Notes under the pieces: model-generated
The model's database searches: none
What the model was told of the DNA's origin: nothing
The model's input: only the letters and a program-made list of their open reading frames with translations
Shown: positions 53,916 through 60,806 of the stretch, one piece after another
How the letters are laid out: each line of letters starts with the position of its first letter
Numbering within the stretch: position 1 is the stretch's first letter
NCBI GenBank assembly: GCA_030427255.1
Contig: JAUHWY010000001.1
Span: forward strand, 112,141 to 176,140
DNA: 64,000 bases
Direction of reading: 5' to 3'
From: Bacteroidia bacterium
Lineage (GTDB): Bacteria > Bacteroidota > Bacteroidia > CAIKAF01
Made by a program: the position numbers and the translations under genes

Positions 53916-54089
53916 TCAAAATTCGTTGGTTTCGTCCTCTAGGGGAATGTTTTTCTTTCGGTTCATTTCCTCCTTTTTGGCCCGTATTACATACCATCCA
54001 AGACCTAAAAAGAAAAGAAAGAAGATACTTAAGGATATGATGGGATATACCTCAATATTGGGTATGTTCCTGGCTACTTCTTTAATCAT
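53916..54089 (-). CDS. ccoQ: Small cbb3 oxidase subunit (CcoQ/FixQ-like)
   Basis: A 57-residue protein found by translating the gap between ccoNO and ccoP. It reads MIKEVARNIPNIEVYPIISL and then SIFFLFFLGLGWYVIRAKKE, a single membrane helix followed by a basic, then acidic tail ending TNEF. Its ATG (54089-54087) overlaps the ccoNO stop by 4 nt (ATGA), and ccoP starts 10 nt after it. Position, size and topology are those of CcoQ, which stabilises the oxidase complex. Confidence 0.88.
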   Translation of the reverse strand: MIKEVARNIPNIEVYPIISLSIFFLFFLGLGWYVIRAKKEEMNRKKNIPLEDETNEF

Positions 54090-56209
54090 GGCTTAGCGTT
54101 TGAAGCAGTTTCTGTAACTTTAATATCGGTGCCTAAGCGTTGCAAATAGGCGATGAGGGCTATAATTTCTCGATTGGCCGGCACCTCAATCTTTTGCTTC
54201 ATCAAATTGGTGGCAATGGAATCGGCCTGGCGGCTCAAGTCGGCATTGGCTTGTTCAGCATATCCTTCCGGATATGGAACACCCAACTTTTGAAGGGTTT
54301 TAATCCGTGTGGCGGTTACTGAGGTGTCCAACTCGTTTTCTACCAACCAAGGGTATCTTGGCATTATGGAACCCGTACTTGTACTGGTAGGATCCAGCAT
54401 GTGGTTAAAGTGCCACCCGTCGGGATACTTTCCGCCCACCCGGTGCAAGTCAGGACCGGTGCGCTTTGAGCCCCACAAGAAGGGACGGTCATACACAAAC
54501 TCTCCCGCTTTGGAGTACTCTCCATAGCGCTCGGTTTCGCTTCGGAAGGGCCGAATCATTTGACTGTGGCATCCCACACAGCCCTCGCGTATGTATATGT
54601 CTCGGCCATGAAGCTCCAAGGCAGTATATGGCTTAACACTTTCAATGGTGGGTACATTGGATTTAATAAGAAAGGCCGGAACAAATTCTATAACTCCACC
54701 AATCAATATGGCCAAAAAGGTCATTACGGTAAAGAAAACAGGCTTGCGCTCCCAAACCCGGTGCCAAAACTCTTTGCCACCGCTGCGCATAGGCGCCAAG
54801 GCAGGAGCAGATGCCTCTTCTTCGGCCACAAACTTGCCGGAATAGGCCGTTTTAACTAAGTTATACACCATAAGGAATACACCTATCAGGTAAAGGCTTC
54901 CTCCAATGCTGCGCACCATGTGCAAATCCAAAATTTGATTGGTCGTTTCCAAAAAGCTGTAGGCCAATTGTCCGCTTTGCTCAAAATTCTTCCACATCAA
55001 ACCCTGCGTAACCGCAGCGGTGTACATGGGCAGGGCGTAAAATATGATGCCCATGGTGCCAATCCAAAAGTGCCAGTTGGCCAAACTTTTGGAGTACAAT
55101 TTGGTATTCCACATTTTAGGAACCAGCCAGTACAGCATACCAAAGGTCAGGAAGCCGTTCCAGCCAAGCGCACCTACGTGCACGTGGGCCACAATCCAGT
55201 CGGTGAAGTGGGCTAGGGCATTTACCTCTTTGAGCGAAAGTAGAGGACCTTCCAAAGTGGCCATACCGTAAGCAGTAACGGCCACTACCATGAATTTCAA
55301 AACCGGATTTTCACGGACACGATCCCAAGCGCCACGCAGGGTTAGGAGTCCATTTACCATACCTCCCCAGGAGGGAGCAATGAGCATAATGGAAAACGCG
55401 GTGCCCAAAGCTTGAGCCCACCCGGGCAAAGCAGTATACAGCAAGTGGTGCGGACCCGCCCAGATATAAATAAAAATCAAGGCCCAAAAGTGAACAATGG
55501 AGAGCTTGTAAGAGTAAACCGGCCGCTCTGCCGCTTTAGGCAAGAAGTAATACATAAGCCCCAAAAAGGGAGTGGTTAAGAAAAAGGCTACCGCATTGTG
55601 CCCATACCACCACTGCACCAAGGCATCTTGCACCCCGGCATACAGCGAATAACTTTTCATGCCGTCGGCCGGCAAGGCCAAGTTGTTTACCACATGAAGC
55701 ACAGCCACGGTCACAAATGAGGCCAAGTAAAACCAAATGGCCACATACATATGACGCACCCGGCGCTTGATCATGGTCATAATCATGTTAATCCCAAAGG
55801 CCAACCAAACCAAAGTAATGGCAATGTCTATCGGCCACTCCAATTCGGCATACTCTTTTGAACTGGTATAGCCTAGAGGGAGCGTTATTGCTGCCGATAA
55901 AATAATGAGCTGCCAGCCCCAAAAGTTAAACCAACTCAAAAACTTACTCCACATCGCTGCCTTAAGCAGCCTGGGCATGGAATAATAAATACCGGTAAAA
56001 ATGGCGTTGCCCACAAAGGCAAAAATTACCGCATTGGTGTGCAGTGGACGTATCCGGCCAAAGGTGGTAAAGGAGGTGTCCATGTTGGCCGGTACCCACC
56101 ACAGCTGAAAAGCCGCAAGCAAGCCCACCAGCATGCCCACAACGCCCCACACAACAGTGGCAATTAAAAAGGCCTTGACAATTTTATTGTCGTACTTAAA
56201 GTGCTCCAT
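54086..56209 (-). CDS. ccoN: cbb3 cytochrome oxidase, fused CcoN-CcoO subunit
   Basis: The 707-residue protein fuses two subunits. Residues 1 to about 470 are CcoN, the heme-copper core with about 12 helices, including WWYGHNAVAFFLTTPFLGLM (heme/Cu His) and HFTDWIVAHVHVGALGWNGF. Residues about 490-707 are CcoO: one helix (VMTFLAILIGGVIEFVPAFL) and a cytochrome c domain with REGCVGCHSQMIRPFRSET and PRYPWLVEN. It reduces O2 with high affinity while pumping protons. The fused form is characteristic of Bacteroidota. It overlaps ccoS by 14 nt. Confidence 0.95.
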   Translation of the reverse strand: MEHFKYDNKIVKAFLIATVVWGVVGMLVGLLAAFQLWWVPANMDTSFTTFGRIRPLHTNAVIFAFVGNAIFTGIYYSMPRLLKAAMWSKFLSWFNFWGWQLIILSAAITLPLGYTSSKEYAELEWPIDIAITLVWLAFGINMIMTMIKRRVRHMYVAIWFYLASFVTVAVLHVVNNLALPADGMKSYSLYAGVQDALVQWWYGHNAVAFFLTTPFLGLMYYFLPKAAERPVYSYKLSIVHFWALIFIYIWAGPHHLLYTALPGWAQALGTAFSIMLIAPSWGGMVNGLLTLRGAWDRVRENPVLKFMVVAVTAYGMATLEGPLLSLKEVNALAHFTDWIVAHVHVGALGWNGFLTFGMLYWLVPKMWNTKLYSKSLANWHFWIGTMGIIFYALPMYTAAVTQGLMWKNFEQSGQLAYSFLETTNQILDLHMVRSIGGSLYLIGVFLMVYNLVKTAYSGKFVAEEEASAPALAPMRSGGKEFWHRVWERKPVFFTVMTFLAILIGGVIEFVPAFLIKSNVPTIESVKPYTALELHGRDIYIREGCVGCHSQMIRPFRSETERYGEYSKAGEFVYDRPFLWGSKRTGPDLHRVGGKYPDGWHFNHMLDPTSTSTGSIMPRYPWLVENELDTSVTATRIKTLQKLGVPYPEGYAEQANADLSRQADSIATNLMKQKIEVPANREIIALIAYLQRLGTDIKVTETASNAKP

Positions 56210-56381
56210 GGTTTTTTGATTCCGATTGTTTGCTTTGGGTCACCCCATCTTCTTGCAGCATGCGCAATGCCGGAGTTTGCGTGTCCTCAAATTGCCCCTT
56301 CTTAACGGCCGAAAAAAACAGCCACAAAAAGAGACCTGCAACACACAAACTAATTCCAATCAATACGAGCAATACTTGCAT
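56196..56381 (-). CDS. ccoS: cbb3 oxidase maturation protein CcoS
   Basis: The 61-residue protein has one membrane helix (MQVLLVLIGISLCVAGLFLW) followed by SAVKKGQFEDTQTPALRML, the CcoS signature (K-x-G-Q-F-x-D). CcoS is needed for heme and copper insertion into CcoN. I prefer ATG 56381; the frame opens at 56411, but those ten codons contain the -7-like GACCTTTG. It is the first gene of the ccoS-NO-Q-P-G-H-TauE operon. Confidence 0.9.
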   Translation of the reverse strand: MQVLLVLIGISLCVAGLFLWLFFSAVKKGQFEDTQTPALRMLQEDGVTQSKQSESKNHGAL

Positions 56382-56401: not shown

Positions 56402-56409
56402 CAAAGGTC
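56402..56409 (-). promoter_or_regulatory. -7-like element GACCTTTG of the cco operon
   Basis: GACCTTTG differs from TAnnTTTG only in its first base, like the GACATTTG before ccoI. It lies 20 nt before ATG 56381 and about 51 bp from the centre of the FNR-type box at 56454-56467. Confidence 0.4.
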
Positions 56410-56453
56410 ACCTTCTTTCGAGGCTTCGGGTATGAGCCACGTCAGGGCAAAAA

Positions 56454-56467
56454 ATGATATTTCTCAT
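56454..56467 (-). promoter_or_regulatory. FNR-type box upstream of ccoS (ATGA-N6-TCAT)
   Basis: ATGA-TATTTC-TCAT has the TGA-N6-TCA core of Crp/Fnr-family sites. Its centre (56460.5) is 51.5 bp from the start of the GACCTTTG element, about two helical turns further than at ccoI, so it would act as a distal (class I) site. This is a candidate. Confidence 0.5.
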
Positions 56468-56537
56468 GTTTTGCGCAAGGGCTTTATTAACAGTTTTTTA
56501 GAAAGTTGATTTGACTGACTTTTGACTATTTTTTTTT

Positions 56538-56693
56538 GGGGCGCCGGGCGGGCCCTTGCCTTTACTCCAAAGCCCAAAGGCCATGTGCCCCTATGCCGCC
56601 CGAGAGCTTCCTGTGGTCGCTTCGGCCGGCCAAGGGGCACAGGGCCTTTGGGCTTCGGGGTACCGGCGCGGTCCCTGCGCCTGTATCCTCCGT
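56538..56693. repeat. Structured GC-rich intergenic element (family B)
   Basis: It lies between ccoI and ccoS and touches the ccoI stop. On the minus strand it ends in GCCCGCCCGGCGCCCCAAA, as other family B copies do. Stems: AAGCCCAAAGGCC (56570-56582) with GGCCTTTGGGCTT (56643-56655), and TGTGCCCCT (56584-56592) with AGGGGCACA (56633-56641), both perfect, separated by one mismatch. An inner GCCG...CGGC stem closes the loop. It may also work as a transcription barrier between the two cco units. Confidence 0.78.
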
Positions 56694-59078
56694 TTATAGA
56701 TTGCAGCTGTTTTTTTGACTTGTTCTAGCTATCCACCACGTACGACTTATAGCCCAGGCTACCACCGTTAAACTGCTTATAGGCATTAGAATCGCCGCAA
56801 TTACAGGGTGCAACCATCCGGCCAAGGCAACCCCTACACCTATGGTATTGTACAGAATACTTAAGGTGAAACACTCTTTTATTATACGTGTAGTTTCTCT
56901 ACTTAAGCGCAATATATCGGGAAAGTCGGCTAAATTTCCCGCCTCCAGAATGGCATCGCAAGCCGGAAAAAATCCGTTTACCGTACCCGTTACCGCCACC
57001 CCAATATCGGCTTTTTTTAAGGCCGGGGCGTCGTTCAAACCGTCGCCCAAAAAGCAGACCTTGCGCTCTTCTTTTTGCAGTTGTTCAATGGCTTTTACTT
57101 TGTCCTCGGGTTGCTGCCTAAACAACAAACGTGCCTTTGAACCGGCCCAGCTTGCTAAAGTTTTGGCTTCGCCCTCGTGGTCTCCGCTAAGAATGCATAA
57201 GGCATGGCTTTTCCCCAGCTTTTGCAACATGCCCTGAACCCCCTGCCGGTATTGATTCTGAAAGTGAAATCCCCCCAACACGCCATCGGGGCTTGCAAAA
57301 AGGGTTCGGCCTGTGCGCCAAGGGTCATCCGGATGTTGACTTACCCAAGCATAATGTCCCAGTTTCCAACCTTCTGCAGTCTGCAGTCCTTTTCCGGGGA
57401 GTTCCTCTACAGCTATGCCATTATTTGTCTTTATGTTTTGGCTTTCCAGCCAATGTTTAATGGCCAAACTCACCGGGTGCCGCGATTGCGAAACCATAGA
57501 AGCAAGGGTTTGCAGGGCCTCATCCGAGAGCGGCGCTCCATTCCATACCACTTTTCCGGTTTTGCCTTCGGTCAGGGTGCCGGTTTTGTCAAACACCAAG
57601 GTTTGCGCGTGCGCCAGCTCCTCCAAAACCTTGGGTTCGCGCACAAAAAAACGTCGACGGGCCAACAAACGGGCCATATTGCCCGTGGCAAAGGGGGCAC
57701 TTAAGGCCAAGGCACAAGGGCAAGCAATAATTAGGATAGAGCTTACAATTTCGAGCCAGCGGTCGGGCGATTGGAAATACCAAAACAGGCCGCCACCTAA
57801 AGCCACCAAGAGTACGGCCAAAATAAACCAACCCGCCAAGGTATCGGTTAAGCCTTTGCCTTGCGTTTTGAGGGCATCTTGTGCGCCTTTGTTCCAAAGT
57901 CCTTTCAGGTAGCTTTGGTCGGCTCCCTGTTCCAATTGCATGTCAAAAACCTGCCCGGCATTTCGCGCTCCGGCAAAAACTGCCGTTTGGGCTTTAATGG
58001 AGAGGGCTTCGCTTTCTCCGGTTACAAAACTGTAATCCAACGAGGCTTTGGGGCTAAGTAAGGTGCCGTCGGCAGGCACTAAATCTCCGGGAAAGAGGCG
58101 TACTTTATCCCCTTTTTTTAGCTGACTCACCGGCCGTTCTATTTCGGTATCGGCTTCCAAGGCCACGGCAGAAAGTGGGAGGTAGCCGGCCGGGTCTCGG
58201 TCAAACCGGAGCGAATGAAAAATGCGCGCCTGATACCATTTGGCCAGCAATAGAAAGAAAATAAGTCCGGCCAAGCTGTCGGCATAGCCCGGCCCGGTTT
58301 CACTTAAAATATCCCATGCCGTACGAATAAAGAGCACCAGCATGCCTAAAGCAAGGGGTATATCAATATGTACTTGTCGGTTTTTTATGGCCAACCAAGC
58401 GGTTTTGAGGTAATCGGCCCCGGAAAAAAAAAGCAAAGGCAGGCAAAAGGCCAGGTTTAAGTATTGAAAACTTCGGTAAAGCAAAGGATCTTCGGCCTCT
58501 GTAAACCCTAAGTATTCGGGAAAACTCAAGAGCATAACATTACCTAAGGAAAACCCGGCTACGCCGAGTTGCTGGATTAAGGTATGGTTGCCTATTCCTT
58601 TTTTGTTGTTTTGGGCTTGGTCGGGCTGGGGTGAGTAGCCAATACTGCTAAGCAATAAAGCGAGTTCAGAAGCTTTTATGGTGTTGGGGTTTACCCAAAG
58701 GTCTATGGTTCTGTTGCTCAAATTGGCCTCAGCCGAAAGGATTCCTGGGTGTAATTCAGGAAGGCGATCGAGCAACCAAATGCAGGAAGCACAATGCATA
58801 CCGGGAAGGTACCAACGCGCACGAGCCTTATCTTCTTGCCAAAATTTCCAAACGGTGTTTAGGTGTTCCGGGGCATCCATCCAGGCAAAGCGGGCCTTTT
58901 CGGGTCGGTTCGAAGAGCGTTCCGGAAGCGCATAATAGGCTTCTAAGCCGCTGTGATGCAGCATATGGTATACCTCGGCGCAGGCCGTGCAGCAAAAAAG
59001 TTCTTTCTCTTTTTGGATCGGGCTAGCACCAATAGGGTCGCCACAATGAAGACAGGGTTGTTCGGGCGCATGCTCCAT
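56694..59078 (-). CDS. ccoI: Copper-translocating P-type ATPase of the cbb3 locus (FixI)
   Basis: CcoI/FixI supplies copper for the oxidase. The 794-residue protein has an N-terminal Cys-rich metal site (CLHCGDPIG, FCCTACAEVYHML) and an HMA domain with MHCASCIWLLDRLP. About eight membrane helices include the transport motif IIACPCALALSAPFATG. Then come the phosphorylation site LVFDKTGTLTEGKTG and the hinge FLGDGLNDAPALKKADIG. I chose ATG 59078; the frame opens 30 nt upstream in the promoter. It has its own FNR-type box, and ccoS follows after about 310 bp. Confidence 0.95.
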   Translation of the reverse strand: MEHAPEQPCLHCGDPIGASPIQKEKELFCCTACAEVYHMLHHSGLEAYYALPERSSNRPEKARFAWMDAPEHLNTVWKFWQEDKARARWYLPGMHCASCIWLLDRLPELHPGILSAEANLSNRTIDLWVNPNTIKASELALLLSSIGYSPQPDQAQNNKKGIGNHTLIQQLGVAGFSLGNVMLLSFPEYLGFTEAEDPLLYRSFQYLNLAFCLPLLFFSGADYLKTAWLAIKNRQVHIDIPLALGMLVLFIRTAWDILSETGPGYADSLAGLIFFLLLAKWYQARIFHSLRFDRDPAGYLPLSAVALEADTEIERPVSQLKKGDKVRLFPGDLVPADGTLLSPKASLDYSFVTGESEALSIKAQTAVFAGARNAGQVFDMQLEQGADQSYLKGLWNKGAQDALKTQGKGLTDTLAGWFILAVLLVALGGGLFWYFQSPDRWLEIVSSILIIACPCALALSAPFATGNMARLLARRRFFVREPKVLEELAHAQTLVFDKTGTLTEGKTGKVVWNGAPLSDEALQTLASMVSQSRHPVSLAIKHWLESQNIKTNNGIAVEELPGKGLQTAEGWKLGHYAWVSQHPDDPWRTGRTLFASPDGVLGGFHFQNQYRQGVQGMLQKLGKSHALCILSGDHEGEAKTLASWAGSKARLLFRQQPEDKVKAIEQLQKEERKVCFLGDGLNDAPALKKADIGVAVTGTVNGFFPACDAILEAGNLADFPDILRLSRETTRIIKECFTLSILYNTIGVGVALAGWLHPVIAAILMPISSLTVVAWAISRTWWIARTSQKNSCNL

Positions 59079-59083
59079 GGGGT

Positions 59084-59128
59084 CAAATGTCAGGAATTGA
59101 AGGTTCAAAAAGCATGATTTTGGTCATG
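59084..59128 (-). promoter_or_regulatory. ccoI promoter with FNR-type box
   Basis: The inverted repeat CATGA-CCAAAA-TCATG (minus-strand reading; 59113-59128) has perfect 5 bp arms and the TGA-N6-TCA core. Its centre (59120.5) lies 29.5 bp before GACATTTG (59091-59084), a -7-like element that ends 5 nt before ATG 59078. This is exactly the spacing at the promoter of the Crp-like gene at 60177. There is no -33 TTG, as expected for an activator-dependent promoter. Confidence 0.68.
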
Positions 59129-59164
59129 CTGGTCAAAAGAAAGCTAAGCTCTCGAAGCTTGCTA

Positions 59165-59325
59165 TGGAAGACGGGCCAGGGACAGCAGCGGCAGCCCGGA
59201 GGAGCCGGCCTTTGCTAGGGCGCAGCGGCCGGGCGGAGCGCAGCAAGCCCCGGGGGCTGCTTGCCCTAGCATAGGCCGGAGCCGAGGACTATAGCGGATG
59301 GCCCGTTCGGCCCCCAAAACGTTCA
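59165..59325. repeat. Structured GC-rich intergenic element (family B)
   Basis: It lies between the divergent ccoI and fnr-like genes. The main stem GGCCTTTGCTAGGGC (59207-59221) pairs with GCCCTAGCATAGGCC (59263-59277) at 14 of 15 positions. The loop holds GGGCGGAGCGCAGCAAGCCC, close to the loop of the 44515 copy (GGGGCGGAGCG, GCAAGCCCC). It ends GCCCGTTCGGCCCCCAAAA. Confidence 0.75.
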
Positions 59326-59339
59326 AATGTCATTAAAAC

Positions 59340-59370
59340 TTGCAAGCTTCCTTATGAAATCCTACATTTA
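59340..59370 (+). promoter_or_regulatory. Promoter of the Fnr-like gene: TTG-N20-TACATTTA
   Basis: TTG (59340-59342), a 20 bp spacer and TACATTTA (59363-59370, last base off consensus), 23 nt before ATG 59394. It has no FNR-type box of its own. Confidence 0.5.
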
Positions 59371-59393
59371 CCCCAAGCGCAACAACAACCTAT

Positions 59394-60101
59394 ATGAAAA
59401 AACTTGCCGATACGTTTCACTGTGCGGATTGCAAGGCGCGGCACAGGTCGGTATTTAATCAAATTCCTTTAGATGCAGTAGAGGAAGTGGATGTAGGAAA
59501 AACCTGCTTCCAATTTAAACGAGGCGAAAGTATTTTTTACGAAGGTCATACTCCGCAAGGGGTGTATTGCATTGAGACCGGTAAAGTGAAGATTTACCGA
59601 ACCGGACCCGATGGAAAAGACCAAATTGTGCGTTTGGCACGTGAGGGAGATATGGTGGGCTACCGCTCCCTGCTTAGCGGCGAAAAGTACAGCAGTACGG
59701 CCAGTTGTTTGGACGAAACCACGGTGTGTTTCGTTCCAAAGGCGCAACTCATGACCTTATTTGCCAGGCAAAGCTGTCTTTCGATGCGTTTTATGCAACA
59801 AGCCTGTCATGAGCTGGGCGAAGCAGGAAAGCTAATTACCAACTTAGCTCAGAAAAGCGTGCGAGAACGTATGGCGGAGGTGCTGCTTATGCTCAAAGAA
59901 ACCTTTGGTCTTACCGAAGACCATGCCTTGGACGTGCGTCTGTCGCGCGAGGAATTGTCCAACCTGGCAGGCACCGCCACCGAATCTTGCATTCGGGTGT
60001 TGTCTGATTTTCAGCAAGAAGGGATGATTCGCTTGGACGGCAAACGGATAGTGCTGGAAAGCATTCCCCAATTGGTGCGAACAGGGCGGGTAGAAGAGTA
60101 G
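59394..60101 (+). CDS. Crp/Fnr-family regulator, FNR-like
   Basis: The 235-residue protein starts with a cysteine motif (FHCADCKARHRSVF, Cys10 and Cys13). A cyclic-nucleotide-binding-like beta roll follows (FKRGESIFYEGHTPQGVYCI). The C-terminal winged helix has the recognition helix LAGTATESCIRVLSDFQQEG. Glu and Arg at i and i+4 are the pair that reads TGA half-sites in CRP and FNR. Other Cys residues (about 38 and 104) could complete an oxygen-sensing cluster, which is not proven. It sits next to the cbb3 locus with matching boxes, so it probably activates it when oxygen is low. Confidence 0.88.
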   Translation: MKKLADTFHCADCKARHRSVFNQIPLDAVEEVDVGKTCFQFKRGESIFYEGHTPQGVYCIETGKVKIYRTGPDGKDQIVRLAREGDMVGYRSLLSGEKYSSTASCLDETTVCFVPKAQLMTLFARQSCLSMRFMQQACHELGEAGKLITNLAQKSVRERMAEVLLMLKETFGLTEDHALDVRLSREELSNLAGTATESCIRVLSDFQQEGMIRLDGKRIVLESIPQLVRTGRVEE

Positions 60102-60124
60102 GCTGCATTTATTCATTTCTTTTC

Positions 60125-60168
60125 CTGATTTATATCATGGTGTGTAAGCTATGCCCTGATTAGCTTTG
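60125..60168 (+). promoter_or_regulatory. FNR-type box and -7 element before the second Crp-like gene
   Basis: CTGAT-TTAT-ATCAT (60125-60138) is close to the FNR consensus TTGAT-N4-ATCAA. Its centre (60131.5) is 29.5 bp before the perfect -7 element TAGCTTTG (60161-60168), which places it near -41.5, the class II position. ATG 60177 follows 8 nt later. There is no -33 TTG. Confidence 0.68.
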
Positions 60169-60176
60169 TGCTAAGC

Positions 60177-60806
60177 ATGGCAGAAACTACACAAATACGC
60201 AAGTTGCCATTTCATCTTTCGGGCTTTGCTTCGCTGGCCGGGGAAACGGTGCACCGAAATATTCGGGTGCAGCGCCTAAGCTGGCCGGGTGTAAAGGTGT
60301 TGGAACTTGAAGCCGGAGTTGGTTACCGTCTGATTCGCGGCCGTATAGAGCTTTGCCACAAAGATGGGGCTTGCCTTTGGCTTGGGCCTGGCGACTTGTT
60401 TGGATTTGGACATTGGCCATTTTTAGCCCCGGATTGGAAACACGTGGTGGCGCGCACAAGTTGCATTGATTGCTTGGCCGAAGAAGATTTAAAGAACCTA
60501 AGTGCAGAGGCTCCTTATTTTGTTTTTAGTGCCATGCAAGAGATGTTAAGGCAAATTGCCGAAGTGGAAAAACAGGCGGGAATGCTTCAAGGGGTGGTGC
60601 AAGACGACCAACTATTTGCCTTGCTTCAAACCTTGGCCCGAAAGTTTGGGCGGGATTCCGAAGGCTTTTTAAATATGCAAGCCAGCAATCAAGAGTTGGC
60701 TCAGTATTTGGGCGTGAGCCTAAGTACCTTGCGGCGTGGCTTGCTTAGATTAGAGCAAGCCGGGAAAGTGCTTAGGCGCCGAGGGCGGCTCAAAACCATA
60801 AGTTAA
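60177..60806 (+). CDS. Second Crp/Fnr-like regulator without the Cys pair
   Basis: The 209-residue protein has a beta-roll N domain (VLELEAGVGYRLIRGRIELC, LWLGPGDLFGFGHWPFLAPD) and a C-terminal winged helix (NQELAQYLGVSLSTLRRGLL then RLEQAGKVLRRRG). It lacks the N-terminal CxxC of its neighbour, and its recognition helix does not show the Glu-x3-Arg pair, so it should bind other DNA. Start ATG 60177; the GTG at 60168 is part of the -7 element. The FNR-type box before it suggests it is controlled by the neighbouring regulator. Confidence 0.78.
   Translation: MAETTQIRKLPFHLSGFASLAGETVHRNIRVQRLSWPGVKVLELEAGVGYRLIRGRIELCHKDGACLWLGPGDLFGFGHWPFLAPDWKHVVARTSCIDCLAEEDLKNLSAEAPYFVFSAMQEMLRQIAEVEKQAGMLQGVVQDDQLFALLQTLARKFGRDSEGFLNMQASNQELAQYLGVSLSTLRRGLLRLEQAGKVLRRRGRLKTIS

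Follow-up and report, generated by a model that had tools for sequence, protein, structure and literature searches.

The locus in which ccoI adjoins an fnr-like gene raises the question of how a protein of the Crp/Fnr superfamily could activate transcription in the Bacteroidota, the RNA polymerase of which reads a different promoter. In the window, i.e., the whole stretch of 64,000 nucleotides that was analyzed, the preliminary description had placed the TGA-N6-TCA boxes upstream of ccoI and of the Crp-like gene at 60177 at one and the same distance from a -7 element on opposite strands, had noted that both promoters lack a -33 TTG, and had read this as class II activation. In the open-licence literature searched, we found neither a description of the position of FNR boxes or of tandem FNR boxes in the Bacteroidota nor a rule for where any activator of the Crp/Fnr family is placed on a Bacteroidota promoter.

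Promoters of the window

Reading of the sequence bore out the geometry claimed for the two promoters, as both boxes lie 29.5 bp (center to first base) from an nAnnTTTG -7 element. On the minus strand, the ccoI promoter consists of CATGACCAAAATCATG, 21 bp, and GACATTTG; on the plus strand, the 60177 promoter consists of CTGATTTATATCAT, 22 bp, and TAGCTTTG. A third promoter with the identical layout, which is the richest example and was absent from the preliminary description, was found upstream of ccoS (56402 to 56466), where two boxes exactly 22 bp apart form a full tandem with centers at -63.5 and -41.5 (Table 1). No second box was found 22 bp above the ccoI box, and a box of this layout before the fnr-like gene at 59394, which autoregulation by the layout would call for, was not found in the window; among the named loci described below, layout sites were present upstream of the fnr-like gene in Chitinophaga costaii (L098) and in L086. 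Homologs of ccoI with a matching class II box were found in L051, L052, and Chitinophaga and Flavobacterium loci, and the arrangement with a box before the second Crp-like gene was also found in L057.

Table 1. Genes and promoter elements of the locus, with positions in the window
Feature	Position	Strand	Remarks
ccoI, Cu-transporting P-type ATPase for cbb3 assembly	56694..59078	-	Heads the ccoI-S-NO-P-G cluster
ccoS	56196..56381	-	Start taken at ATG 56381; followed by ccoNO (54086-56209)
fnr-like gene (P0001, 235 aa), proposed activator	59394..60101	+	ORF; divergent from adjoining ccoI
Second Crp-like gene (P0002, 209 aa)	60177..60806	+	HTH with S-x3-R, without Glu-x3-Arg
FNR box TGACCAAAATCA of the ccoI promoter	59115..59126	-	Predicted center -41.5; from sequence and genome-wide spacing peak; kept in G004
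-7 element GACATTTG of ccoI	59084..59091	-	From sequence; -12 to -5 register from PMC9723704
FNR box TGATTTATATCA before the second Crp-like gene	60126..60137	+	Predicted center -41.5; kept in G004, spacer diverged
Degenerate second box TGCATTTATTCA	60104..60115	+	Exactly 22 bp above the 60126 box; 5/6 core letters
-7 element TAGCTTTG of the 60177 promoter	60161..60168	+	From sequence; PMC9723704 register; predicted start ~60173
Upstream box TGAGAAATATCA of the tandem ccoS/ccoNO promoter	56455..56466	-	Predicted center -63.5
Downstream box TGACGTGGCTCA of the tandem ccoS/ccoNO promoter	56433..56444	-	Predicted center -41.5; kept in G004
-7 element GACCTTTG of the ccoS/ccoNO promoter	56402..56409	-	From sequence

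All TGA/TCA and -7 letters of the three promoters were kept in a sister species (G004), the CcoI of which is ~93% identical, and in its 60177 promoter 7 of the 23 spacer positions were changed with the length unchanged. The full ccoS tandem and the 5/6 second box of the 60177 promoter, which reads TGCATTTTTTCA in the sister species, were both kept there as well. The start taken for ccoS, MQVLLVLIGISL, aligns with ccoS of the sister species and of G010.

In a start-site map of Flavobacterium psychrophilum, the sigmaA motif TAnnTTTG occupies -12 to -5 (PMC9723704), and a box centered 29.5 bp before it is therefore centered at -41.5. E. coli class II FNR promoters have their site at -41.5 and a -10 hexamer that starts at -12 (PMC7349173); with the F. 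psychrophilum register, the palindromic sites found here are centered at that class II position. The lack of a -33 TTG held for the layout as a whole: in a frequency matrix of 70 promoters with this layout, nothing like TTG was present at -33 to -31, and the upstream core element (-35/-33) was thus poor or absent, which is what an activator-dependent promoter would show.

With the -12 to -5 register (PMC9723704), ccoI transcription is predicted to start at ~59079, one base ahead of the ATG, i.e., the ATG is one base past +1 (59078 to 59091), and a cytochrome ATG in L003 falls at +1. By these predicted starts both messages are leaderless or nearly so; leaderless messages are reported to be only 5.5% in F. 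psychrophilum. A GC-rich, palindrome-rich intergenic element (59160 to 59325) lies between ccoI and the fnr-like gene and has 15 matches in the genome, counting itself, most of which are partial. A comparable GC-rich block lies between ccoI and ccoS (~56520 to 56690).

The second Crp-like protein, P0002, gave no Pfam match to a cNMP-binding domain. Degenerate Crp-like genes 3' of an fnr-like gene were observed in this genome and in Cryomorphaceae/Owenweeksia metagenome-assembled genomes (L057 and L076), preceded each time by an FNR box, with the distance to the -7 element one base shorter in L076. The degenerate protein may be a partner or an antagonist of the FNR protein.

Spacing and tandem boxes across genomes

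Genome-wide enrichment of the spacing had been set beforehand as the result on which the claim was to stand or fall. When the complete genome (3.22 Mb) was searched for TGA-N6-TCA followed by nAnnTTTG at any of 31 spacings, 98 sites were found, 14 of which were at 29.5 bp and 84 of which were distributed over the other 30 spacings (mean of 2.8; Poisson P = 1.6e-6). With the strict box TGAY-N4-RTCA, 11 sites were found at 29.5 bp versus 0.33 per spacing elsewhere (P ~1e-13). The claim thus withstood the test, and an ORF begins close downstream at all 14 sites. Targets of the layout include ccoI, ccoS, hemN, and usp, and the ORFs that follow the 14 sites encode, among others, a c-type cytochrome/Tll0287 protein, an RND adaptor, a universal stress protein, MBL-rhodanese, rhodanese, peroxiredoxin, oxygenase-like, and DUF2147 proteins. 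At the background rate, chance should account for two or three of these 14 sites, and some targets, i.e., a homogentisate dioxygenase-like protein, a 2OG oxygenase, and the peroxiredoxin, are not obvious low-oxygen genes.

The spread of the layout was assessed in 198 genomes of the phylum, 49 of the class of the window and 149 of other classes; as these genomes are related to each other, counts across them are not fully independent. In the 49 genomes of the class, 445 sites were at 29.5 bp versus 74 per other spacing (6-fold). The enrichment in the 149 genomes of other classes was 1.3-fold overall, and it was 5.1-fold (31 versus 6) in the 10 genomes in which P0001 had a strong match (E<1e-40) and 1.1-fold (121 versus 110) in the remaining 139. 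Histograms of small genome sets also peaked at 29.5 bp, with the adjoining spacings 28.5 and 30.5 somewhat raised in one six-genome set. In 80 named loci around P0001 homologs (Flavobacteriales, Chitinophaga, Cytophagales, Bacteroidales, and others), 56 sites were at 29.5 bp versus 3.65 at other spacings, and 82% of the sites at 29.5 bp were intergenic versus 41% at other spacings. The enrichment in the genome, the class, and the genomes with a close homolog, together with the predicted register of -41.5, supports the class II activation put forward in the preliminary description.

Two further peaks in the named loci were rejected as separate arrangements. The peak at 17.5 (20 hits) is mostly an artifact: boxes such as TGACTTTTGTCA contain nAnnTTTG themselves, and a tandem box is therefore counted as the -7 element of its partner. 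The peak at 51.5 (41 hits), considered as a separate class I site, arises from the upper of the two boxes in 22-bp tandems.

A second box was located exactly 22 bp upstream in 34 of the 70 class II promoters, and the named loci contained 56 box pairs at exactly 22 bp versus 0.31 per other distance. The 49 genomes of the class contained 53 full tandems with a -7 element, in eight families (in the family numbering of the search tool), and the 149 genomes of other classes of Bacteroidota that served as controls contained one; the reversed tandem with a -7 element gave no matches in the same genomes. In some divergent gene pairs, which share one tandem (G093 and G101), each box is at -41.5 for one gene and at -63.5 for the other. 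Since 22 bp is approximately two helical turns, neighboring dimers would occupy almost the same face of the DNA, and from the sequence the two dimers probably bind cooperatively. Triple FNR boxes with a 22-bp period were observed at G179:C5:324906-324992 and G037:C2:2518553-2518639.

The candidate activator and competing readings

P0001 has a PF00027 (cNMP-binding-like) and a PF13545 (Crp HTH) domain, both above the Pfam cutoff. Its AlphaFold2 model (mean pLDDT of 90) superposes on FNR and CRP structures, and Foldseek matches included Aliivibrio fischeri holo-FNR (5e44; TM ~0.83) and Porphyromonas gingivalis 2gau. The Glu-x3-Arg pair that had been noted in the recognition helix corresponds to E197 and R201 and was invariant in 25 aligned homologs. 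P0001 scored 84.9 bits against the NCBIfam FNR model (cutoff of 228) and was similarly below the cutoffs of the FixK and FnrL models. In alignment with E. coli FNR, the sequence of which was checked against NC_000913, C10, C13, and C112 of P0001 correspond to C20, C23, and C122, and the position of C29 is Ser in P0001 and Ser, Asn, or Thr in all 25 rows. P0001 does not have four ligands at the positions of E. coli C20, C23, C29, and C122, and we do not claim strict membership of the E. coli-type FNR family, although it may function as FNR does. A new conserved cysteine, C59, aligns with A70 of E. coli FNR, and C10, C13, C59, and C112 were all present in 103 homologs of the loci. C59 was present in 103 of the 105 homologs with C10 and C13, and two Chitinophaga sequences were short of C59 only; it was lost in all four homologs that had lost both C10 and C13 (Fisher P = 3e-6, ignoring relatedness; the joint loss of C10, C13, and C59 probably represents two independent losses only). 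The cysteine pattern suggests a cluster with a relocated fourth ligand. Four FNR homologs (L045, L049, L101, and L112) are short of three or four of the cysteines and have kept E-x3-R, and these are candidates for FixK-like, cluster-free regulators.

The promoters of this layout are, with high probability, class II promoters of a Bacteroidota FNR regulon. In the mechanism that we propose, a dimer of P0001 would bind TGA-N6-TCA centered at -41.5, would stand in for the missing -33 TTG, and would contact the housekeeping polymerase at the TAnnTTTG -7 element, and low oxygen would thereby switch on ccoI, ccoS-ccoNOPG, the small Crp-like gene at 60177, and some dozen further genes. At the oxidase promoter, and in many relatives, a second dimer would be bound exactly 22 bp upstream (-63.5), beside the first. 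Oxygen would be sensed via an Fe-S cluster held by C10, C13, C59, and C112.

P0001 is not the only type of protein found with the layout. In 15 genomes of the same class, the best match to P0001 was mostly a protein of ~350 aa without the N-terminal cysteine region, and the layout was 4.2-fold enriched in these genomes. In the loci examined, it consists of a receiver domain joined to a CRP-type regulator that shares the E-x3-R helix, and it adjoins a PAS histidine kinase in all seven loci in which neighbors were read (L133 to L136, L140, L141, and L143); the one neighboring kinase tested matches the heme-PAS domain of FixL (E = 9e-33). In L140 and L143, a tandem class II promoter separates the fusion gene from a nearby hemN. 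The fusion occurs in many genomes of the class, and no description of it was found in the literature searched. As the layout is kept with the fusion where the Cys-type FNR is missing, the sensor cannot be told from the layout alone, which seems to be characteristic of the TGA-binding Crp/Fnr group of the Bacteroidota, with sensors that can be exchanged. No receiver-CRP fusion was found in the genome of the window at E<1e-5, which favors P0001 as the regulator there.

Binding of the class II sites by another Crp-like protein of the genome, with a signal that is not an Fe-S cluster, is unlikely. The cysteine-free protein of L014 (TSREVISRLL) and the protein of L002 (ISPETLTRLKSK) both have E-x3-R, one of the 14 sites lies a few bases past the end of the L002 gene, and the E-x3-R reading also suits the receiver-CRP fusions at the matching layout elsewhere. 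However, layout sites were 15-fold denser in the 16-kb loci around a Cys-type FNR gene, and outside the class, enrichment was seen only with a close P0001 homolog, although many of the remaining genomes have other Crp-like proteins. The L002 gene (2064 to 2687) is the third E-x3-R Crp-like gene, and the class II site that follows it, TGACAATTGTCA, would drive a YCII-domain gene.

Just as improbable is that P0001 activates as proposed in response to nitric oxide or redox/sulfur state instead of oxygen, a reading prompted by the peroxiredoxin, rhodanese, and MBL-rhodanese proteins among its own targets and by HcpR-type regulators of the Bacteroidota, which sense NO. Against it, the targets seen most often near the regulator throughout the phylum are cbb3 oxidase, hemN, and usp; three of the four conserved cysteines are at ligand positions of E. 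coli FNR; and the alternative regulator adjoins a FixL-type heme-PAS kinase, which is an oxygen sensor. Less probable still is repression, in which the protein at -41.5 would cover the -33 region and block polymerase. The box does overlap the place of a -33 element, but promoters without a -33 TTG should be weak unaided, and -41.5, held to one-base precision, is the activating position of FNR and CRP. In F. psychrophilum, moreover, lack of oxygen strongly induces the genes of cbb3 oxidase and heme synthesis (PMC9723704). There is next to no chance that the matching spacings are due to coincidence or base composition: AT-rich DNA is indeed rich in TGA-N6-TCA and TTTG, but the peak at 29.5 bp recurred in every data set tested, the sites are conserved across species, and the genome-wide test already refutes this reading.

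A broader reading, to which we give slightly less than an even chance, is that of a system of the Bacteroidota's own, with an FNR clade in which the fourth ligand has moved from the N-terminal loop of C29 to the beta strand of C59, with adjacent cooperative dimers at -63.5 and -41.5 acting on the TAnnTTTG polymerase, and with evolutionary interchange between this FNR and a FixL kinase with a receiver-CRP fusion on a shared operator.

Comparison with known systems

High-affinity oxidase and related genes in many Bacteroidota carry one fixed layout with the E. coli spacing. Under this rule the box center precedes nAnnTTTG by 29.5 bp, and in many cases another box lies exactly 22 bp farther upstream, so that low-oxygen regulons of soil, marine, and host-associated Bacteroidota can be predicted from the DNA sequence.

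The proteins studied here share the phylum with Bacteroides MalR. CRP/FNR homologs of Flavobacteriales and Saprospiraceae have tentatively been read as Bacteroides MalR, i.e., as carbon sensors (PMC8510549). In contrast to MalR, the proteins described here would, by sequence, govern respiration genes via FNR boxes and carry Fe-S-type cysteines, which contradicts the carbon-sensor reading for the FNR-type regulators. P. gingivalis HcpR and PgRsp, which are reported to bind heme, belong to the same superfamily and phylum. The P. gingivalis Crp/Fnr structure 2gau is the nearest solved structure to P0001, but in the alignment it has no Cys at the positions of C59 and C112.

The FixLJ-FixK system of rhizobia (fixNOQP, cbb3) is alike in its targets (cbb3 oxidase and its assembly) and type of box and, in some Bacteroidota relatives, in a heme-PAS FixL-type kinase. 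It differs in that the receiver-CRP protein (~350 aa) of those Bacteroidota, as judged from its domains, merges the FixJ receiver and the FixK-like regulator of a FixL-type system into one protein.

The closest likeness is with class II promoters of E. coli FNR, which have the TGA-N6-TCA box, the distance of 29.5 bp from its center to -12, the E-x3-R helix, and a weak or absent upstream (-35/-33) element in common with the promoters described here. Whereas sigma70 in E. coli reads a -10 TATAAT from -12, a Bacteroidota-type polymerase here reads TAnnTTTG at -12 to -5; a second box exactly 22 bp upstream is very frequent here; and the fourth cysteine is elsewhere, with C59 in place of C29. Class II geometry is thus kept despite a different core promoter. 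The geometry itself matches that of E. coli; the new elements are that it is general on the Bacteroidota promoter, that the tandem has a period of exactly 22 bp, and that the set of cysteines has changed.
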